Made by a program: the position numbers and the translations under genes
Notes under the pieces: generated by a model
What the model was told of the DNA's origin: nothing
What the model saw: the letters and a program-made list of their open reading frames with translations, nothing else
Databases searched by the model: none
Part shown: positions 9,716 through 28,167 of the stretch, in pieces
How positions within the stretch are numbered: position 1 is the first letter of the stretch
Layout: each line of letters starts with the position of its first letter
DNA from: Minwuia sp.
GTDB taxonomy: Bacteria; Pseudomonadota; Alphaproteobacteria; Minwuiales; Minwuiaceae
Direction: 5' to 3'
NCBI GenBank assembly: GCA_029210175.1
Contig: JARGPL010000033.1
Span: 1-49,876 of the forward strand
Length of the DNA stretch: 49,876 bases

Positions 9716-10519
9716 TCAGTCCTTGTCGTGAATCGTGTGCGGGTTGACCATGCCCATGACGTTGAAGCCGCTGTCCACATGGTGGACCTCGCCCGTCACA
9801 CCGGCTGACAGGTCGGACAGGAAATAGACCCCGGCACCGCCGACATCGTCCTGCGTGATCGCCCGCTGCAGGGGCGAATGATCGCGCGCCCAGCCATAGA
9901 CATAGCGGGCATCGCCGACCGCAGCGCCCGAGACGGTGCGCATGGGACCGGCAGAAATGGCATTGGCGCGGATGTTGTCCGGGCCGAGATCGACGGAGAT
10001 GTATCGCACGCTCGCCTCCAGCGCCGCCTTGGCCACTCCCATGACGTTGTAGCTGGGCATCCAGCGCTCCGACCCGGAAAATGACAGGGTCAGCAGGCTG
10101 CCCCCTTCGGTCATCAGCGGTGCCGCCAGCCGTGCCGTCTCGGTGAAGGAATAGCAGCTGATCGCCATGGTGTTGGTGAAATTGGCGGCTGTGGTGTCCA
10201 CATACCGGCCCTTCAGTTCGTTCTTGTCGGAATAGGCCACCGCATGCAGCACGAAATCCAGCCGATCCCAGGTCTGTCCGACCTTTTCGAACACCCGCGC
10301 CAGATCACCCGGGTTGGCCACGTCACAATTCTCCAGGAACGCGCCGTCAACCTGCTCTGCCAGTGGCTTGACCCGCTTCAGGAAAGCATCACCCTGGTAG
10401 GTGAAGCCCAGTTCCGCCCCTGCCGCATGCGCGGCCTTGGCAATGGCCCAGGCAATGGAGTGATCGTTCGCCACACCCATGATCAGCCCGCGGCGGCCCT
10501 GCAGCAGCTTGTCAGCCAT
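9716..10519 (-). CDS. fabI: Enoyl-ACP reductase (NADH) FabI
   Basis: The 267-aa protein is a short-chain-reductase-type enoyl-ACP reductase that performs the last reduction of each fatty-acid elongation cycle. The cofactor region GLIMGVANDHSIAWAIAKA (11-29) is typical of FabI. The catalytic Tyr-x6-Lys pair is Y157 and K164 in PSYNVMGVAKAA. The segment GPMRTVSGAAVGDARY resembles the FabI of other alphaproteobacteria. The position matching E. coli Tyr146 is Phe (LTLSFSGSE), which is unusual. It is the third gene of fabA-fabB-fabI, starting 3 nt after the fabB stop. Confidence 0.95.
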   Translation of the reverse strand: MADKLLQGRRGLIMGVANDHSIAWAIAKAAHAAGAELGFTYQGDAFLKRVKPLAEQVDGAFLENCDVANPGDLARVFEKVGQTWDRLDFVLHAVAYSDKNELKGRYVDTTAANFTNTMAISCYSFTETARLAAPLMTEGGSLLTLSFSGSERWMPSYNVMGVAKAALEASVRYISVDLGPDNIRANAISAGPMRTVSGAAVGDARYVYGWARDHSPLQRAITQDDVGGAGVYFLSDLSAGVTGEVHHVDSGFNVMGMVNPHTIHDKD

Positions 10520-10522
10520 CTA

Positions 10523-11746
10523 TCAGTCCTCGAACCGCTTGAAGATCAGACTGGCGTTGGTGCCACCAAAGCCAAAGCTGTTCGACATGACGCAGTTCAG
10601 GCCCGCATTGTCTATGCGTTCGCGCACCAGCGGATAGTCAGCGGCACCATCGTCCAGATTGTCGATATTGACGGACTTGGCCAGGAAATCGTGGCGCAGC
10701 ATCAGCAGGGAATAGATCGCTTCCTGCACACCCGCGGCACCCTGGCTGTGGCCTGTCAGGCTTTTCGTGGAACTGACATGGGGCAGGTCGGTATCTGCAA
10801 ACGCCCGCCGGATGGCATCCAGCTCGACGATGTCACCCACCGGCGTCGCCGTGCCGTGCGCGTTGATGTAATCGATCTTCGTGTCGCCAATGGTGGACCG
10901 CGCCAGCTGCATGCAGCGTTCCGCGCCCTCACCGGACGGGGCGACCATGTCGACGCCATCGGAGGTGGCACCGTAGCCGACGATTTCGGCGTGGATGGTC
11001 GCACCGCGCGCCTTGGCATGCTCCAGCTCCTCGAGCACAAGGATGCCACCGCCGCCCGCGATCACGAACCCGTCGCGGTCCTTGTCGTAGGCCCGGCTGG
11101 CCTCTGTCGGGCGATCGTTGAACTTGCTGGACATGGCGCCCATGGCGTCGAACAGCATGGACAGGGTCCAGTGCAGTTCCTCACCACCACCGGCAAACAT
11201 GATGTCCTGCTTGCCCAGCTGAATGCTCTCCATCGCGTTGCCGATGCAATGCGCGCTGGTGGAACAGGCGGAGGAGATGGAATAGCTCATCCCCTTGATC
11301 TTCATCGCCGTCGAGAGATTGGCGGAATTGGTCGATGACATGCAGCGCGGCACCATGTAGGGGCCGATTCGCTTCACGCCCTTTTCCCGCGCGATGTCCG
11401 CGGCCTGCACCTGATTGGATGTCGACGGACCGCCGGACCCGGCGATCAGGCCGGTGCGCGGGTTCGAAACCTCGTCATCCTCCAGACCCGCGTCGGCAAT
11501 CGCCTGCTGCAGGGCAATGTAGTTGTAGGCCGCGCCGCCGCCCATGAACCGCAGCACGCGCCGGTCGATGTGATCTGCCGGATCCAGCTTGATGGAGCCC
11601 TGGATCTGGCTCCGCATCCCGATCTCTGCATATTCCGGCGCGAACTCGATACCGGATCGCGCGGTCTTCAGGGATTCAGTAACCTCATCGGCGTTGTTGC
11701 CGATTGACGAGACAACACCGAGACCTGTGACGACAACTCGTTTCAC
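10523..11746 (-). CDS. fabB: Beta-ketoacyl-ACP synthase I FabB
   Basis: The 407-aa condensing enzyme has the Cys-His-His triad: C161 in [10 protein letters not shown]297 in [11 protein letters not shown] and H333 in GHSQGAAGV. The N-terminus [21 protein letters not shown] and the full length fit FabB. In fatty-acid synthesis it elongates the cis-3-decenoyl-ACP made by FabA, which commits carbon to unsaturated chains. It lies 17 bp downstream of fabA and just before fabI, the standard alphaproteobacterial order. Start and stop are well supported by the operon spacing. Confidence 0.97.
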
Positions 11747-11763
11747 GAAAAACCCTCGATTCT

Positions 11764-12273
11764 TCAGGTGGTGGTGAAGAGGCCGACGCGCATGTCCTTG
11801 GCCGTGTAGATATCCTCGCCGTCAGCCTTCACAACGCCGTCGGCGATGCCCAGCACCAGCCGGCGTGCAATCGTGCGCTTGATGGATAGATGATAGGAAA
11901 CCATCTTCACGGTTTCCAGTACCTGCCCGCCGAATTTCACCTCACCAACGCCCAGCGCACGGCCCCGGCCCGGCAGGCCGAGCCAGCCAAGATAGAAGCC
12001 GACAGCCTGCCACATGGCATCAAGGCCAAGGCAGCCCGGCATCACCGGGTCGGTCTCGAAATGGCACTTGAAGAACCAGAGGTCAGGATTGACGTCGAGT
12101 TCGGCAATGATCTCCCCCTTGCCATACTCACCGCCCTCATCACTGATCCTGGTGATGCGGTCGAACATCAGCATTGGCGGCAGGGGCAGGCGGGCGTTGC
12201 CCGGTCCAAACAGTTCACCATGGCCGCATTGCAGCAACTCTTCGTAGGAAAAGCTCGTCTTCCGATCCGTCAA
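11764..12273 (-). CDS. fabA: 3-hydroxydecanoyl-ACP dehydratase/isomerase FabA
   Basis: The 169-aa hot-dog-fold enzyme dehydrates 3-hydroxydecanoyl-ACP and isomerises the trans-2 product to cis-3, the entry point to anaerobic unsaturated fatty acid synthesis. The catalytic pair is H71 in [14 protein letters not shown] and D85 in CLGLDAMWQ, matching the E. coli pair H70 and D84. It is the first gene of the leftward fabA-fabB-fabI operon and is divergent from irr across about 226 bp, so the two operons may share control sequences. Confidence 0.97.
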
Positions 12274-12408
12274 GGCGTGACCCCGCTTCGTTTGCCTACC
12301 CGGTCGGTGCGCCGCACCGCCAGACTGTCATGCTGATTTCTGTTTCGGACTATAGCCTTATGGCCGGGCAGACAAAACCCGCAAATCTGGGGTTCTGATT
12401 GCCATGCC

Positions 12409-12441
12409 TGCTGCCTCCCTGCTGCCTCCCTGCTGCCTCCC
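12409..12441. repeat. Three tandem copies of an 11-bp unit upstream of irr
   Basis: The unit TGCTGCCTCCC occurs three times without interruption and is followed by TGCGGGCTT. The array ends about 60 bp before the irr start. An open frame in phase with irr runs through it, but the extension has no conserved features, so I treat the repeat as part of the fabA/irr intergenic region. A copy-number change would alter promoter spacing and, because 11 is not a multiple of 3, would disrupt any longer irr frame. Confidence 0.8.
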
Positions 12442-12499
12442 TGCGGGCTTCCGGGGCGGGGGGCTTCTCCTCGACGGTGCGGCTACCTATATTGAACGG

Positions 12500-12913
12500 A
12501 TGATGAGCATGGCAGACCAGATCATTTCGGATCGACTGCGCGCGGCAGGGTTGCGCCCGACACGTCAGCGTCTGGCGCTGGCGGCGCTTCTGCTGTCAGC
12601 CGGACCCCGTCATCTGACGGCCGAGATGCTGTACGACGAAGTGCGGAAAGCGGGCGTTACCGTGTCGCTGGCCACCGTCTACAATTGTCTGCACCAGTTC
12701 ACGCAGGCCGGGATGGTTCGGGAAGTCGTGGTGGATCCGGGCCGATCCTATTTCGATACCAACGTGTCGGAACACCATCATTTCTACCATGAAGCGACCG
12801 GCACGCTGACCGATATTCCGGGCGAGACGATCCCGCTCGGCACCCTGCCCGCCGCCCCTGAAGGCAAGGTCATCGACCGTGCGGAGGTCATCATCCGGCT
12901 GCGTGACGCCTGA
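12500..12913 (+). CDS. irr: Fur-family iron response regulator Irr
   Basis: The protein has about 137 aa. The winged-helix part contains RPTRQRLALAALLLS and VSLATVYNCLHQFTQAGMV, typical of the Fur superfamily. The HHH motif in SEHHHFYHE (about residues 92-94) is the haem-binding and signature motif of Irr rather than Fur. Irr accumulates under iron limitation and represses or activates haem and iron genes through ICE boxes. Three in-frame ATGs cluster at 12500, 12503 and 12509; a longer frame back to 12404 looks spurious. The gene is divergent from fabA and followed by rubrerythrin, whose promoter carries an ICE-like palindrome. Confidence 0.93.
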   Translation: MMSMADQIISDRLRAAGLRPTRQRLALAALLLSAGPRHLTAEMLYDEVRKAGVTVSLATVYNCLHQFTQAGMVREVVVDPGRSYFDTNVSEHHHFYHEATGTLTDIPGETIPLGTLPAAPEGKVIDRAEVIIRLRDA

Positions 12914-13009
12914 GAACTGTCTGCGGGATCGTTCCCTGCATGCCCGGCCCGCCACGTCTGACATCGCGACATCATGAGGGCGTGGCCCGACGCAACGGCA
13001 TTTTCTGTC

Positions 13010-13025
13010 TTTGGAATAATTCCAA
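13010..13025. promoter_or_regulatory. ICE-like palindrome, candidate Irr operator
   Basis: The sequence TTTGGAATAATTCCAA has inverted half-sites TTGGAA and TTCCAA three bases apart. It matches the Irr iron-control-element consensus (TTTAGAA-N3-TTCTAAA) except for A-to-G and T-to-C changes that preserve the symmetry. It ends 4 bp upstream of a -35 element and lies 97 bp after the irr stop codon. Its place just upstream of -35 suits activation better than blocking, but that is inference. Confidence 0.6.
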
Positions 13026-13029
13026 TCCA

Positions 13030-13057
13030 TTGACCTCGCGCATTCGCACCCCATAAT
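13030..13057 (+). promoter_or_regulatory. Predicted sigma-70 promoter of rubrerythrin
   Basis: TTGACC (13030-13035) and CATAAT (13052-13057) are separated by 16 bp. The predicted start near 13064 gives a leader of about 55 nt, ending in the strong ribosome site GGAGGAGG (13103-13110), 8 nt before the rubrerythrin ATG. The ICE-like palindrome sits directly upstream. Confidence 0.55.
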
Positions 13058-13118
13058 CAGACAAGCGGCATCAGTGATGATCGCCGCTCGCATCATCATT
13101 TCGGAGGAGGACAAGCTC

Positions 13119-13535
13119 ATGTCGCTGAAGGGTTCGAAGACAGAAGAGAGCCTGAAGGAAGCCTTTGCAGGCGAATCACAGGCCAACCGCCGCTATCTCT
13201 ATTTCGCGCAGAAGGCTGACGTCGAAGGCTACAACGACGTGTCCAGCGTCTTCCGCTCCACGGCAGAGGGTGAAACCGGTCATGCACACGGTCACCTGAA
13301 GTTCCTGGAAGAGGTCGGTGATCCGGCAACGGGTGAGCCGATCGGTTCCACCGAAGCCAACCTGAAAGCCGCCATCGCGGGCGAAACGCACGAGTACACC
13401 GACATGTACCCGGGCATGGCGAAGACCGCGCGTGACGAAGGCTTCGACGAGATCGCTGACTGGTTCGAGACGCTGGCGAAAGCGGAAAAGAGCCATGCTG
13501 GCCGGTTCCAGAAGGCCCTGGACTCCATGGGCTGA
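13119..13535 (+). CDS. Rubrerythrin (short form, no rubredoxin domain)
   Basis: The 138-aa ferritin-like diiron protein has the complete rubrerythrin ligand set: E19 in AGESQAN, E52 and H55 in GETGH, E89 and E92 in GETHEY, and E123 and H126 in AEKSH. Rubrerythrins reduce hydrogen peroxide in the cytoplasm. The C-terminal rubredoxin domain that normally supplies electrons is absent, so a separate donor is needed. The ATG at 13119 is chosen for its GGAGGAGG ribosome site; a longer frame from 13074 lacks one. It lies between irr and an Fe-S protein gene, suggesting iron-dependent control and a donor encoded next door. The codons are regular, consistent with strong expression. Confidence 0.93.
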
Positions 13536-13559
13536 TTGCCCGGGAGTTGACGGAAAAGT

Positions 13560-13586
13560 CCGGGGGCGGACCAGTGTCGCCCCCGG
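13560..13586 (+). terminator. GC-rich hairpin after rubrerythrin
   Basis: Two perfect 9-bp arms, CCGGGGGCG (13560-13568) and CGCCCCCGG (13578-13586), enclose a 9-nt loop 24 bp after the rubrerythrin stop. No T-run follows, so termination is likely incomplete. It may cap an abundant single-gene rbr transcript while allowing read-through into the Fe-S gene. Confidence 0.5.
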
Positions 13587-13670
13587 TACTCCGCAACCCC
13601 GACATCATCGCCTCGCGGGGATCGCGATGCCCGCACCCGACCCAGACCTTATTCATGGTGGAGATGACAG

Positions 13671-15020
13671 ATGGAAGGCGGCCTTGGCGCGCCGGAGCGG
13701 CATCCGCTCGACTGGCAAAGCGACAGCTTCTACGACACGGACGCGATCGACGCCGAACTGCGGCGCGTGTTCGACATCTGTCACGGCTGCCGATTGTGTT
13801 TCAATCTGTGCGACAGCTTTCCGCGCCTGTTCGACCTGATCGACGAGAGCGAGTCGGGTGAGCTGGACACCGTCGCCTCCGCCGATTTCAAGCCGGTGGT
13901 CGACGCTTGCACGTTCTGTGACATGTGCTTCATGTCCACCTGCCCCTACACCCCGCCCCACGAATTCCAGCTTGATTTCCCGCATCTGATGCTCCGCTAC
14001 CGCGCGACGGAGCACAAGCAGGGCAAGACCCCGTTCTGGGACAAGCAACTGACGAAGACCGACCGCAACGGCAAGCTGGCCGGGCTGACCGCCCCCGTCG
14101 CCAACTGGGCAACGGACCGCGGCAACAAGATCACACGCCCCATCCTGGAGGACATCGCCGGCGTCGACCGCAATGCCGACCTGCCGAAGTTCCACGCCAG
14201 GAGCTTCACCGCCCATGCGGCGCACCCGCCGGCGCGCAATGCCGACGCCCCGGCAGCAGCGCGCAAGGCGGTGCTCTACGCCACCTGCTTCGTGAACTAC
14301 AACAACCCCGGTATTGGCACGGCGACCCAGGCCATCCTGGCCGCGAACGGCGTCGAGACGGAGGTCGTCTACCCCGAATGCTGCGGCATGCCGCAGCTGG
14401 AACAGGGCGACCTGGAAGATGTAGCCCGGCGCGCGAAGAACGTGGCGCTGGCCCTGAAGCCCTGGATCGAGGACGGCTATGACGTCATTGGTCTGGTGCC
14501 ATCCTGCGCGCTGATGCTGAAGTTCGAATGGCCACTGATGCTGCCTGACGACCCGGACGTCGCGCGCCTGGCGAAGGCGACCCGCGATGTGGCGGAATAC
14601 GTCGTCGACATCGCCCGGAACGAAGGCCTGGTGGCGGAACCGAAGCCACTGCAGGGCGGTGTCAGCCTGCATCTCGCCTGCCATGCACGGGCTCAGAACA
14701 TGGGCCAGAAGGCCGCGGAAATGCTGCGACTGATCCCCGACATGGACCTGAAGATCATCGAACGCTGTTCCGGCCATGGCGGCAGCTGGGGCATCAAGAA
14801 GGACAATTTCGAGACCGCAATCAAGGTCGGCAAGAACGGCGCGCGTACCGCCGGGCGCGAGGACAAGGCCCACGTGGCATCCGAATGTCCGCTGGCCGGG
14901 GTCCACATGCTGCAAGGCATGGAACGGCTGCACGCGGAAAATCCGGACACGTTCAAGGCACCTCCATCCGTCGCCAGTCACCCGATCGAGCTGTTCGCCA
15001 AAGCCTGCGGCCTGACCTGA
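13671..15020 (+). CDS. GlpC-like Fe-S oxidoreductase with two 4Fe-4S motifs and CCG-type domains
   Basis: The 449-aa protein has a ferredoxin-like N-terminus with cysteines 37, 40, 43 and 47 (CHGCRLCFNLC) and 80, 83, 86 and 91 (CTFCDMCFMSTCP). Two cysteine-rich domains of heterodisulfide-reductase/GlpC type follow. The first has C206, ECCGMPQ (about 236-242) and C279; the second has C337 in HLACHAR and C366 in ERCSGHGG, where the usual CCG reads CSG. No membrane segment is evident. GlpC-like proteins pass electrons to quinone or disulfide acceptors. Placed between rubrerythrin and a DUF3501 gene, it is a good candidate electron donor to the rubrerythrin diiron site. That role is inferred, not shown. 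Confidence 0.85.
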   Translation: MEGGLGAPERHPLDWQSDSFYDTDAIDAELRRVFDICHGCRLCFNLCDSFPRLFDLIDESESGELDTVASADFKPVVDACTFCDMCFMSTCPYTPPHEFQLDFPHLMLRYRATEHKQGKTPFWDKQLTKTDRNGKLAGLTAPVANWATDRGNKITRPILEDIAGVDRNADLPKFHARSFTAHAAHPPARNADAPAAARKAVLYATCFVNYNNPGIGTATQAILAANGVETEVVYPECCGMPQLEQGDLEDVARRAKNVALALKPWIEDGYDVIGLVPSCALMLKFEWPLMLPDDPDVARLAKATRDVAEYVVDIARNEGLVAEPKPLQGGVSLHLACHARAQNMGQKAAEMLRLIPDMDLKIIERCSGHGGSWGIKKDNFETAIKVGKNGARTAGREDKAHVASECPLAGVHMLQGMERLHAENPDTFKAPPSVASHPIELFAKACGLT

Positions 15021-15081
15021 AGCCAGCCGGGCCTGATCGCCTGCCCCTGTTCCTGCGCCTCCGACCAACAGTGAGGATCCC

Positions 15082-15675
15082 ATGATCGAACGTCATACGT
15101 CCCTGAAAGCCGAGCATATCCTGCCGCCTGATCGGTTCGCGGCCGAACGCAGTGCGCTGCAGGCCGAACTGCGCGCCCACAAGCAGCATCGCCGCATCGA
15201 TGTCGGGCCGTTCGCTTCCGTGTTCTTCGAAAGCTACTTCACCATGTGGTGGCAGACGCAGGAGATGCTGCGTGTCGAAGGCGGCGGGGCCGAACAGCTG
15301 GTGGATGAGCTGGAGGCCTATGCGCCGCTGGTCCCGTCCGGTCGCACACTGACGGCCACCATGATGCTGCAGATCGAGGATCCGGTGCGACGCCAGCGGG
15401 AACTGTCGCGCCTCGGCGGCATCGAGCATGAGGTATCGGTCGTCATCGATGGTGTTGCGGTGAAGGGAGAGGCCGATGACGACCTCGACCGCACCAACGC
15501 GGACGGCAAGGCATCATCCGTGCATTTCTTCATCTTCAGCCTGTCCGATGCCCAGGCGGCGGCAATGAAGGATGGCTCGGCAGAAGTCCAGTTGCGCATC
15601 AGCCACCCGAATTACAATCACATGGCCGGGCTGACCGCGGACCAGATCGCGTCGCTGGCCGCCGACCTGAGCTGA
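15082..15675 (+). CDS. DUF3501 family protein
   Basis: The 197-aa protein has the features of DUF3501: FESYFTMWWQTQEMLRVE near residues 49-66, a middle segment beginning LTATMMLQIEDP, and the C-terminal ISHPNYNHMAGL. No cofactor motif is evident and no cysteine ligand set is visible. Family members usually sit next to rubrerythrin and a cysteine-rich Fe-S protein, as here, so it is probably a subunit or assembly partner of that Fe-S protein. It starts 61 bp after the Fe-S gene and likely shares its transcript. Confidence 0.82.
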   Translation: MIERHTSLKAEHILPPDRFAAERSALQAELRAHKQHRRIDVGPFASVFFESYFTMWWQTQEMLRVEGGGAEQLVDELEAYAPLVPSGRTLTATMMLQIEDPVRRQRELSRLGGIEHEVSVVIDGVAVKGEADDDLDRTNADGKASSVHFFIFSLSDAQAAAMKDGSAEVQLRISHPNYNHMAGLTADQIASLAADLS

Positions 15676-15729
15676 CGGGCTGGCTGCCTGAATGGCTGCC
15701 CGACAGACTGAACGGAGAACCGGACGCGA

Positions 15730-16296
15730 TCAGTCCCGACGCCCGATATCGAGCCGGGCGCGCCCGTAACTGCGTGTGTCGAGGGCCGAGAAACCATCGG
15801 GCCAGGTGAAGCCGTCCTTGCCATCGGTTTCCACGACGACCAGGGCGTCGGGGGCGAACCAGCCGGCATCGAGGAAACCGAGCAGGGCGGGTGCGGCCAT
15901 ACCCTGCCCGTAGGGCGGGTCAAGCAGGACCAGATCATGGATCCGCGGTGCCCGGCGCGGCCGCGTTGCATCGGCGCGGATCACCCGCACGTCGTCCGCC
16001 GCGCGCGCCTTGGCAATGTTGCGGTTCAGGATGCGCAGCGACGCATCTGCCTGTTCGATGAACGTGACGGCTGCGGCTCCGCGCGACAGGGCTTCCAGAC
16101 CCAGCGCCCCGGTACCGGCGAAGATGTCGAGCACGATACAGCCTTGCGGCGCGGCGCCGTGGGGGCCACGAAACATCTCATTGTGCGCCAGCAGGTTGAA
16201 CAGCCCTTCCCGCGTGCGGTCGGCGGTGGGGCGGATCGTGGTGTCGTTTCCGCCGTCAAGCTTCAGCCCCCGCATGCGGCCGGCAACAATGCGCAT
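15730..16296 (-). CDS. rsmD: 16S rRNA (guanine966-N2)-methyltransferase RsmD
   Basis: The 188-aa SAM-dependent methyltransferase has motif I VLDIFAGTGALGLEALSRGA (about 55-74) and the N6/N2-type catalytic motif LLDPPYGQG (about 124-132). MRIVAGRMRGLKL at the start is the RsmD N-terminal signature. It methylates G966 of 16S rRNA during 30S assembly. It is the last gene of the leftward pgsA-to-rsmD run, 48 bp after rluB, and the two rRNA-modification genes are commonly adjacent in alphaproteobacteria. Confidence 0.95.
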   Translation of the reverse strand: MRIVAGRMRGLKLDGGNDTTIRPTADRTREGLFNLLAHNEMFRGPHGAAPQGCIVLDIFAGTGALGLEALSRGAAAVTFIEQADASLRILNRNIAKARAADDVRVIRADATRPRRAPRIHDLVLLDPPYGQGMAAPALLGFLDAGWFAPDALVVVETDGKDGFTWPDGFSALDTRSYGRARLDIGRRD

Positions 16297-26593: not shown

Positions 26594-28090
26594 CTACCGC
26601 GCCCGGCGGCGGATGGTCTGGACTGCGTTCTGGATATCCAGCGCCCGGTAATAGTCCGGGCCGCCGTTGGGCAGGATGGTCAGGGCGCGGGTCGCCTGTT
26701 CCTCGGCAAAGTCGAACTGGCCGCTGTGGAAATACTGTTCCGCCCCGGCCAGCAGGGACATGCCGCGATCCCCACTGCGACCATGCACCAGCGCCAGTTG
26801 CCGCCAGGCATCGGCGTTGTCGCTCTCATAGCGAAGCACTTCCTCCAGAAGCGTCCGTGCCTCGGTATCCGCTTCCGGTGTGTTGGTGCTGATCAGGGCC
26901 TGGGTCAGCATGGTGGTGACAGCCGCGTGCTGGATACGCTGCTGCGCCTCCCGCAGCGGCGGCAGGGCGTCGGCGACCCGGCCCCCTTCCAGCAGGATCT
27001 GGCCACGCAATTCGACGAAATAGGCATTGTCGGGATTGTCCGCGATCAGCACGTCGATGTCCGCCAGCGCCTGGTCGGTCCGCGCCAGCCGCATCAGCGC
27101 CACCGCCCGAGCATAGCGCGCGACCTCCGACGTGTCCGTCATGGGGTAGTCCCGCAGGATCTGCTTCGGGTCCTTGACGAAGCCGGACAGCTTGGCACGC
27201 ATCAGATTGTGGGCGCGGATCAGTTCCGGCGGGTCGGGCTGATCATACAGTGGCGATCCCTTGACCCGGGTTTCCAGCGCTTCGATGCGTTCATAGCTGA
27301 CAGGATGGGTCCGCAGGTAACTGTTGGAGGCACGGGCACCGACCAGAAAATCCTGTTCGTCCAGCACCCGCAGGAATTCGACGATACCACGCGGCGACCA
27401 GCCGGCCTTTTCCATCAGGTCGACAGACGCCTGGTCAGCCGCTGATTCCTGATTGCGGGAATAGGTCAGAAACAGCTGCGTGCCCGCGGACGAGCCACCG
27501 GCGATCAACCCCCCGGCAGCGCGCCCGTCACCAGCAGCAACCGCAGCCAGCCCGCCCAGCAGAGCGGCGATGATGGAAATGGTCTGTGCATTGGCCAGCG
27601 CGTCGGCGGTGCGCGACAGGTGTCCGCCCCGGATATGGCCGGTTTCATGCGCCAGCACGCCGACCAGCTGTCGCGGCAGTTCGGTGCGCAGGATCAGCCC
27701 GGTAAAGATGAACACCCGCTGCCCCCCGGCCACGAAGGCATTCAGCGACGGATCATTGACCAGATACGTCCGCGCCACGCGGGTATCCAGGTTGGCCGCC
27801 CGGAACACCGGCTTGGCGTAGAGCGCGAGGATATGTTCTATTTCCGCGTCCCGTACCAGATTGAGAGGTCGGTTCTGGGCACAGGCCGGGGTGGAGAACA
27901 GCACGAACAGCGCCAGGGCCGTCAGCGACGACAAGATGCGGGCCGCGGCACGGGAAACACCCTCTCGCCGGGGCAGGCATGCATCGGACTGCCGAAATTC
28001 TGGCTGAGGGGACACTGAAATTGGTGACACCGGCTTTGAAACCGCTGGCTTTGAAACCGCTGGCTTTGGGAACACTGGCTTTGGGAACAC
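26594..28090 (-). CDS. M48 family metallopeptidase with TPR repeats (BepA-like)
   Basis: The 498-aa protein has a hydrophobic export segment at about 50-71 (SLTALALFVLFSTPACAQ), an M48 zinc peptidase domain with the HExxH motif AHETGHIRGGHL (H148, E149, H152) and the later Glu in NQESAADQ, and a C-terminal half of TPR helices (about 300-490). The layout matches BepA, which handles misassembled outer-membrane proteins. The GTG at 28090 has AGGAGG 8 nt upstream. The first 20 residues are pentapeptide repeats of KPVFP/KPAVS type encoded by a 15-bp tandem repeat, giving an unusually long n-region. Slippage or a downstream GTG may vary the N-terminus. Confidence 0.88.
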   Translation of the reverse strand: MFPKPVFPKPAVSKPAVSKPVSPISVSPQPEFRQSDACLPRREGVSRAAARILSSLTALALFVLFSTPACAQNRPLNLVRDAEIEHILALYAKPVFRAANLDTRVARTYLVNDPSLNAFVAGGQRVFIFTGLILRTELPRQLVGVLAHETGHIRGGHLSRTADALANAQTISIIAALLGGLAAVAAGDGRAAGGLIAGGSSAGTQLFLTYSRNQESAADQASVDLMEKAGWSPRGIVEFLRVLDEQDFLVGARASNSYLRTHPVSYERIEALETRVKGSPLYDQPDPPELIRAHNLMRAKLSGFVKDPKQILRDYPMTDTSEVARYARAVALMRLARTDQALADIDVLIADNPDNAYFVELRGQILLEGGRVADALPPLREAQQRIQHAAVTTMLTQALISTNTPEADTEARTLLEEVLRYESDNADAWRQLALVHGRSGDRGMSLLAGAEQYFHSGQFDFAEEQATRALTILPNGGPDYYRALDIQNAVQTIRRRAR

Positions 28091-28091
28091 T
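28032..28091. repeat. Four tandem 15-bp repeats overlapping the M48 peptidase start
   Basis: Two copies of GGCTTTGAAACCGCT (28032-28061) are followed by two of GGCTTTGGGAACACT (28062-28091). On the minus strand they encode Lys-Pro-containing pentapeptides at the very N-terminus of the M48 protein, and the outer units each supply a GTG that can act as a start. The ribosome site AGGAGG lies at 28099-28104. Because 15 is a multiple of 3, copy-number changes stay in frame. Confidence 0.85.
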
Positions 28092-28167
28092 GGGTGGACC
28101 TCCTGAGGGCCAGGTATGCCGGTTCGGCAGAATGTGATGAACCGATGTTATTGAAGGAAAACATGGC

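Follow-up and report, generated by a model that had tools for sequence, protein, structure and literature searches.

The window analysed here, the whole 49,876-nucleotide stretch formed by positions 1 to 49,876 of contig JARGPL010000033.1 (forward strand) in the Minwuia sp. assembly GCA_029210175.1, carries a rubrerythrin operon beside the gene for an iron response regulator, Irr. All on the + strand, irr (12500-12913; Fur family, IrrA type, assigned from NCBIfam and its own sequence) is followed by a probable Irr site, the iron control element (ICE) box TTTGGAATAATTCCAAT (13010-13026), assigned from its match to the consensus and from related genomes; by a sigma-70-like promoter (13030-13057) with a -35 element TTGACC (13030-13035), a 16 bp spacer and a -10 element CATAAT (13052-13057); and by three structural genes. 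These are rbr (13119-13535), encoding an aerobic-type rubrerythrin (RBR) of 138 amino acids (PF02915, E 1.1e-30); the gene for the Fe-S protein RFO (13671-15020; 449 amino acids), with the CCG domain PF02754 in two stretches and two 4Fe-4S motifs; and a DUF3501 gene (15082-15675; 197 amino acids; PF12007, 181.3 bits against a cut-off of 25). A first-pass annotation, made from the letters alone, had named irr, rubrerythrin, GlpC-like Fe-S and DUF3501 genes in this order; all four are recovered by Pfam and NCBIfam, co-directional as described, and position 13010, at which that annotation had the module begin, is the first base of the palindrome TTTGGAATAATTCCAAT. Gaps of 135 bases separate rbr from RFO and 61 bases RFO from DUF3501, and a single transcript for the three genes is plausible, because 12880-15760 yielded no terminator-like site (1.8 expected).

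The three genes are a member of an already described system: the conserved RBR-RFO-DUF3501 cluster was named the 'aerobic-type rubrerythrin' system, and its Fe-S protein RFO, by Cardenas, Quatrini and Holmes (2016; PMC5114695), whose text reports all three together in 185 of the 4461 genomes examined; the same module is also treated in PMC7852563. The window shares with that system the three clustered genes and the single-domain RBR. The terms Irr, Fur, regulator and ferric uptake do not occur in the main text of PMC5114695, and the irr neighbour and the ICE box are added here. No paper on irr adjoining an aerobic rbr operon, or on an ICE box at one, was found from titles and the beginnings of abstracts, and an earlier listing in Rodionov et al. 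2006 or RegPrecise is quite possible.

In most of the related genomes examined, the module adjoins irr and bears a probable Irr site. The window Irr exceeds the cut-off of the IrrA model NF045678 (196.3 bits against 150), and features an HHHFYHE histidine cluster and just one cysteine, with no Cys-Pro, the haem motif of Irr. Among 142 alphaproteobacterial genomes, 67 carry a close RBR (at least 75% identity), and in 58 of these an irr-like gene, matching the window Irr at E 1e-20 or better, lies directly 5' of rbr on the same strand, with a median gap of 190 bases between the matches; irr is elsewhere in three and absent from six. Similarly, irr lies 5' of rbr in 62 of the 73 RBR-bearing members of a set of named loci chosen by DUF3501, comprising the best 80 of 499 and nearly all alphaproteobacterial, with Azospirillum and Methylocystis represented. 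Sites were scored over 14 letters against TTTAGAA-N3-TTCTAAA, which we take to be the ICE consensus. The window box TTTGGAATAATTCCAAT matches at 11 letters, its A-to-G change recurring symmetrically on the opposite arm, a variant shared with the sister genome G082, and its score was reached by none of 200 shuffles; a scan allowing up to three mismatches finds one site where 0.95 are expected, a chance-level yield, and the weight is carried by the exact match and the relatives.

Across the 61 Irr-bearing genomes of the first set, a box of at least 11/14 lies within 300 bases of rbr in 52 (0.92 expected from dinucleotide shuffles) and one of at least 12/14 in 37 (0.09 expected), as opposed to a box of at least 11/14 in none of the six genomes without Irr (Fisher p 5e-5, with kinship ignored). 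In the second set, drawn from a sample of the phylum, sites of 12/14 or 13/14 are present in all four genomes with Irr (E below 1e-20), whereas none of the eight without Irr reaches 12/14, the best being 11/14 (p 0.002); irr lies far from rbr in these four (G235, G317, G321 and G348), of which G348 belongs to another class. No box at 11/14 is present in 47 RFO upstreams or 54 DUF3501 upstreams. SAR11 loci, counted apart for their AT-rich DNA and high background, carry a 12/14 box in 25 of 26 cases (0.79 expected). Among 15 RBR matches below 75% identity, likewise counted apart, a box of at least 11/14 is found in three, comprising two of six with irr (0.33 expected) and one of nine without (0.75 expected).

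Autoregulation of irr as the sole purpose of the box was rejected, since it lies 3' of irr and 5' of rbr, and is retained at rbr in genomes that have irr elsewhere; 11 of 37 irr upstreams also carry a box at 11/14. Genomes G057 and G091 have irr elsewhere yet a 13/14 box at rbr, and G112, with the same arrangement, has a box of only 11/14, a score reached by 13 of 200 shuffles. Seven of ten loci without an adjacent irr keep the box (0.08 expected), all seven being Methylocystaceae with near-identical sites. A known counterpart is mbfA, the rubrerythrin-VIT1 iron exporter of rhizobia and Rhodobacter, likewise a ferritin-like gene under Irr via an ICE box, although MbfA is a membrane protein, unlike RBR. 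In a thin control of six VIT1-type loci, a plausible mbfA frame was recovered in three and an ICE box in only one of these (L294, 12/14), 29 bases from the mbfA start codon and lacking a TTGAC-type promoter at the offset seen for rbr.

The ICE box and the promoter are conserved as one unit with fixed spacing. In the window, the -35 element starts four bases after the last base of the box and belongs to the only promoter-like site in 12880-15760 (0.3 expected), from which transcription would be predicted to begin near 13064. When the 51 upstreams with enough room are aligned on the box, one further conserved block emerges, TTGAC, 20 bases after the box start; it lies 18-23 bases from the box start in 44 of 52 boxes, and at exactly 20 bases in 33 of 52, against 0.38 expected from its rate elsewhere in the same DNA. 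The pattern recurs in 35 named loci outside both the first set and SAR11, with TTGAC in 28 and the spacing of exactly 20 in 21, and in SAR11 loci, where TTGAC stands at 20 in 24 of 25. With the -10 element scored too, the box centre lies 35-45 bases 5' of the -10 centre in 44 of 73 promoters (0.8 with shuffled flanks) and at another offset in 29; these 73 derive from 89 upstreams from outside SAR11, 16 of which lack a promoter-like pair, and the 89 include two duplicate pairs (L180/G051 and L227/G001), in which the named locus has the same upstream as the member of the 142-genome set. The distance from box to start codon is variable, by comparison (10th-90th percentile 73-168 bases), indicating that box and promoter are kept together as a unit.

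The coherence of the three genes was assessed in the same genome sets. Within the 142 alphaproteobacterial genomes, DUF3501 is found in 70, close RBR in 67 and RFO in 67, with DUF3501 and close RBR together in 66; the counts set aside weak second RBR matches (G073:C5, G089:C39 and G047:C7), weak RFO matches (G043 and G075, which have only these) and weak second RFO matches of at most 31% identity (G087, G044, G122 and G056). The module had been proposed with the proviso that it would fall if genomes commonly carried the Fe-S/DUF3501 pair without rubrerythrin; such a pair was rejected as a common arrangement, being found neither in the class set nor in the named loci, and no intact RFO-DUF3501 pair without RBR occurs among the 142 genomes. 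Two of the 67 RFO-bearing genomes (G081 and G027) have RFO and DUF3501 without an RBR match, and four genomes in all have DUF3501 with no RBR match: the G081 contig begins with the last part of RBR; in G127 DUF3501 is itself cut by the contig start; in G027 (L136) an unrelated gene truncates RFO, and a 100-N gap lies inside DUF3501; and in G007 (L151) the start of RBR abuts the end of DUF3501. The G027 and G007 loci are broken or misassembled, and G027 holds no intact pair. At the named loci, RFO adjoins DUF3501 in 80 of 80 and RBR is present in 73, the RFO match of the other seven beginning within 250 bases of a contig end; all 26 Pelagibacteraceae loci among them carry RBR, RFO and DUF3501. 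In the phylum sample of 299 genomes, DUF3501 is found in 17, five of them already in the class set, and all 12 newly taken loci, six from outside the class, hold the three genes.

The window RBR comprises a single ferritin-like domain (Pfam Rubrerythrin over residues 10-133), is free of cysteine and has no rubredoxin among its Pfam matches, in agreement with the earlier description of a rubrerythrin with diiron ligands and without a rubredoxin domain. Alignment to sulerythrin places the diiron ligands at E19, E52, H55, E89, E123 and H126, with E92 nearby; the sulerythrin ligands E53 and E126 are taken from a Protein Data Bank (PDB) title, and E92 from a literature passage. The nearest solved structures are 4DI0, a Burkholderia RBR (E 1.6e-71), and sulerythrin (E 4.9e-53), the two-domain RBR 1b71 being more distant (E about 5e-30). 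By its domain content, its DUF3501 and COG0247-type neighbours and its closeness to sulerythrin and 4DI0, the protein is an aerobic-type rubrerythrin (group 4 of Cardenas et al. 2016). Two single-domain relatives have been characterised: sulerythrin of Sulfolobus, with diiron ligands identical by alignment, is reported to react rapidly with H2O2 but only very slowly with O2, and ferriperoxin, an RBR of the same type from Hydrogenobacter thermophilus, acts as a peroxidase with NADPH and ferredoxin-NADP reductase (FNR) in vitro and is required for growth at 10% oxygen, as the mutant described in the text of PMC3317640 attests. Ferriperoxin was assayed with NADPH and FNR, whereas the window RBR is encoded in an irr-linked operon; in H. 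thermophilus the RFO gene is described as located apart from the rubrerythrin gene (PMC5114695).

RFO was compared across 50 sequences (49 of the 80 named loci plus the window, most Pelagibacteraceae being left out). Its two 4Fe-4S motifs, C37-C40-C43-C47 and C80-C83-C86-C91, are invariant in all 50, although matches to the Pfam models for 4Fe-4S domains stay under the cut-offs. The first CCG domain has C206, C237, C238 and C279, with methionine (49) or isoleucine (1) at residue 282; the second has C337, C366, C406 and A409, with serine (47) or alanine (3) at residue 367, and the usual motif is absent from it in 50 of 50 sequences. The earlier account of two 4Fe-4S motifs and two cysteine-rich domains therefore holds for the motifs, and in part for the domains, the second being present minus two of the five usual cysteines. 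A non-cubane CCG protein of the HdrB/SdhE type, defined by C-x31-39-CC-x35-36-C-x2-C, was rejected, as neither CCG domain fits this motif in the 50 sequences; so was GlpC, with 186.8 bits against an NCBIfam equivalog cut-off of 278 and, in a second model, 116.1 against 279.9. Identity to Escherichia coli GlpC is 27% over 309 columns, and where the second CCG domain of GlpC has a CC pair and a CXXC end, that of RFO has Cys-Ser, no CXXC and a conserved CSGHGG loop; H338, H369 and H412 are invariant. Two CCG domains are nonetheless common to RFO and the CCG Fe-S carriers GlpC, HdrB, LutA and EtfD. The structure model of RFO (mean predicted local distance difference test score, pLDDT, 89.2) resembles LutA, itself an integrative model (Z 22.4, root-mean-square deviation (rmsd) 2.4, 227 residues), EtfD (Z 21.6, rmsd 3.7, 367 residues), HdrB (Z 18.4, rmsd 3.2, 241 residues) and the hypothetical Helicobacter protein 3kwl (Z 17.3); LutA, EtfD and HdrB are electron carriers. 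No transmembrane helix is evident, as no 19-residue window is membrane-like (maximum hydropathy 1.38). Residue 446 is cysteine in the window RFO and tyrosine in 47 of the 50 aligned sequences.

The DUF3501 protein was aligned similarly (55 sequences: 54 of the 80 named loci plus the window). With no cysteine among its 29 invariant residues, the protein is unlikely to have a thiol or Fe-S function in its own right. Its model (pLDDT 92.5) closely matches the solved structure 3fjv (Z 24.5, rmsd 1.6, 187 residues), the sole strong PDB sequence match (E 1.8e-45; next E 0.59), which is itself described as a protein of unknown function. Beyond 3fjv, the best match is CrdA at Z 7.2, within the range commonly seen, and assignment of a function from the fold was rejected. 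The near-constant presence of DUF3501 beside RBR and RFO perhaps marks a docking or maturation factor.

The locus probably encodes an aerobic-type RBR system in which RBR reduces peroxide and RFO most likely re-reduces RBR, transcribed from one promoter directly under Irr via the ICE box. RBR would be oxidised at its diferrous site by H2O2, perhaps along with organic peroxides; its electrons would be restored via the clusters of RFO, a soluble protein related to GlpC, HdrB and EtfD that would stand in for the lost rubredoxin domain; DUF3501 might assist docking, upkeep or maturation; and Irr, bound at the ICE box, would set expression by haem and iron status. From the first-pass interpretation, the single three-protein module stands and the iron link emerges stronger than claimed, through the ICE box and the adjoining irr, whereas a quinol or thiol donor and DUF3501-aided electron transfer found no support. 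That RFO compensates for the lost rubredoxin domain is not new, having been proposed in PMC5114695, where the text leaves the RFO-less case to experiment; no experiment on RFO was found in the literature examined on the module. The electron path repeats that proposal; the spacing-locked Irr box in most relatives examined is the finding to carry forward. Electron supply to the single-domain rubrerythrins of aerobes is a wider question bearing on this module, and the Irr tie offers a physiological handle, predicting when it should be made. The tie also bears on the same three proteins in mitochondria of Andalucia and several other protists, to which the authors of PMC7050145 assign an alphaproteobacterial origin, and in which, unlike the window's cluster, the genes are unlinked and the proteins predicted to be mitochondrial.

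Several observations weigh against this system as set out. The genomes are related, and the counts are not independent events; among the 61 Irr-bearing genomes, nine fall short of 11/14 at rbr, two with a best score of only 8/14, and eight of the 52 boxes lack TTGAC at the usual place. In G112 (81% complete), RBR and DUF3501 are present but no RFO was found, and RBR occurs without RFO and DUF3501 in G016 (79%), G033 (63%) and G096 (57% identity), the last two falling outside the 67 close-RBR genomes. Lacking the usual cluster motif in its second CCG domain, RFO may be no plain electron relay, and ferriperoxin receives its electrons from NADPH and FNR with no RFO involved (as reported in PMC3317640). 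The same points recommend a rather unlikely alternative, in which electrons reach RBR from a general donor (FNR or ferredoxin), and RFO and DUF3501 serve its maintenance by repairing, metallating or reactivating the diiron site under oxygen: NADPH and FNR suffice for ferriperoxin activity, not every RBR is accompanied by RFO, and the second CCG domain, minus its standard motif, still keeps invariant H338, H369 and H412. Yet the reported Km of ferriperoxin for H2O2 with FNR, 1.6 mM (PMC3317640), is poor, suggesting that FNR is not the natural partner and leaving room for a better donor, and the kinship of RFO to electron carriers favours RFO in that place. An iron-storage protein or ferroxidase, rather than a peroxidase, would explain the iron regulation and accord with the ferritin-like fold, and the authors of a Pelagibacter study name the protein a putative ferroxidase; the peroxidase activity and mutant phenotype of ferriperoxin (PMC3317640), and the reported reaction of sulerythrin with H2O2 and hardly with O2, make this improbable.

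Whether Irr activates or represses the peroxidase operon is more evenly balanced. The box at a fixed spacing just 5' of the -35 element suits an activator touching RNA polymerase, and a fuller reading, offered tentatively and unlikely to hold in every part, is that the module is a direct Irr target in Alphaproteobacteria and at least one genome outside, its ICE box spacing-locked to the -35 element, that Irr activates it when haem is short, and that the altered second cluster domain of RFO is a dedicated RBR reductase site. If true, this would constitute a haem-sparing switch, with a non-haem diiron peroxidase and its own Fe-S donor replacing haem catalases and peroxidases. There is an even chance that Irr instead represses the operon at low iron or haem, as with mbfA and bfr, with release at high iron or peroxide: the conserved near-consensus -35 (TTGAC) would be expected of a promoter needing no activator, Irr on the ICE box would cover the -35, and in Bradyrhizobium Irr reportedly represses mbfA and bfr until iron or H2O2 lifts the repression. 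Bradyrhizobium Irr is reportedly degraded on iron or H2O2, so that repression would act as a peroxide switch. The R. sphaeroides ccpA gene, whose start is given as 3' of its Irr box and whose expression under iron limitation as about 1.8-fold higher without irr, indicates that a box 5' of the start is no proof of activation, and favours repression from such a position as well. However, the R. sphaeroides mbfA start is reported to lie inside the box, whereas the window box abuts the -35 element from its 5' side at one fixed spacing, and a 1.57-fold rise (P 0.025) of Pelagibacter rbr on iron limitation, reported for SAR11_0399, which may be this rbr, fits activation. Service to another Fur-family regulator such as PerR is very doubtful. 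The 7-1-7 form of the site and the peroxide role of the operon speak for it, and TTAGAATNATTCTAA presumably also resembles a PerR box, but in two sets the site is present where an Irr homologue is, and the gene adjoining rbr is irr itself in 58 of 67 genomes.

A few further observations concern the same elements in other genomes. G348 (L251), from outside the class, combines an Irr homologue with an ICE box of 13/14 at rbr, and the DUF3501 proteins of G235 (L252) and G321 (L257), from inside the class, score like those of non-class genomes; comparison of these three hints that the operon moved between lineages with its ICE site. The partnerless RBRs of G033 (L134) and G096 (L135) are far more diverged, as if partners constrained RBR. 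Three ICE-like sites are present in the window's genome, including L094 (G000:C40:18799-18815), situated between an Fe(III) transporter-like binding-protein gene, of which it lies 5', and another gene, and L092, after adk and before rpsM and perhaps a chance occurrence (gene names from reading).

Elsewhere in the window, fabI-, fabB- and fabA-like genes (9716-12273, - strand; names from reading) are divergent from irr, and in G096 a fabA-like gene adjoins the solitary, diverged RBR without an intervening irr match. Just 5' of irr, CCTGCTGCCTC (12407-12444) is a perfect 11-base tandem repeat of 3.5 copies, and a 15-base tandem repeat of about 4.5 copies lies at 28027-28093.

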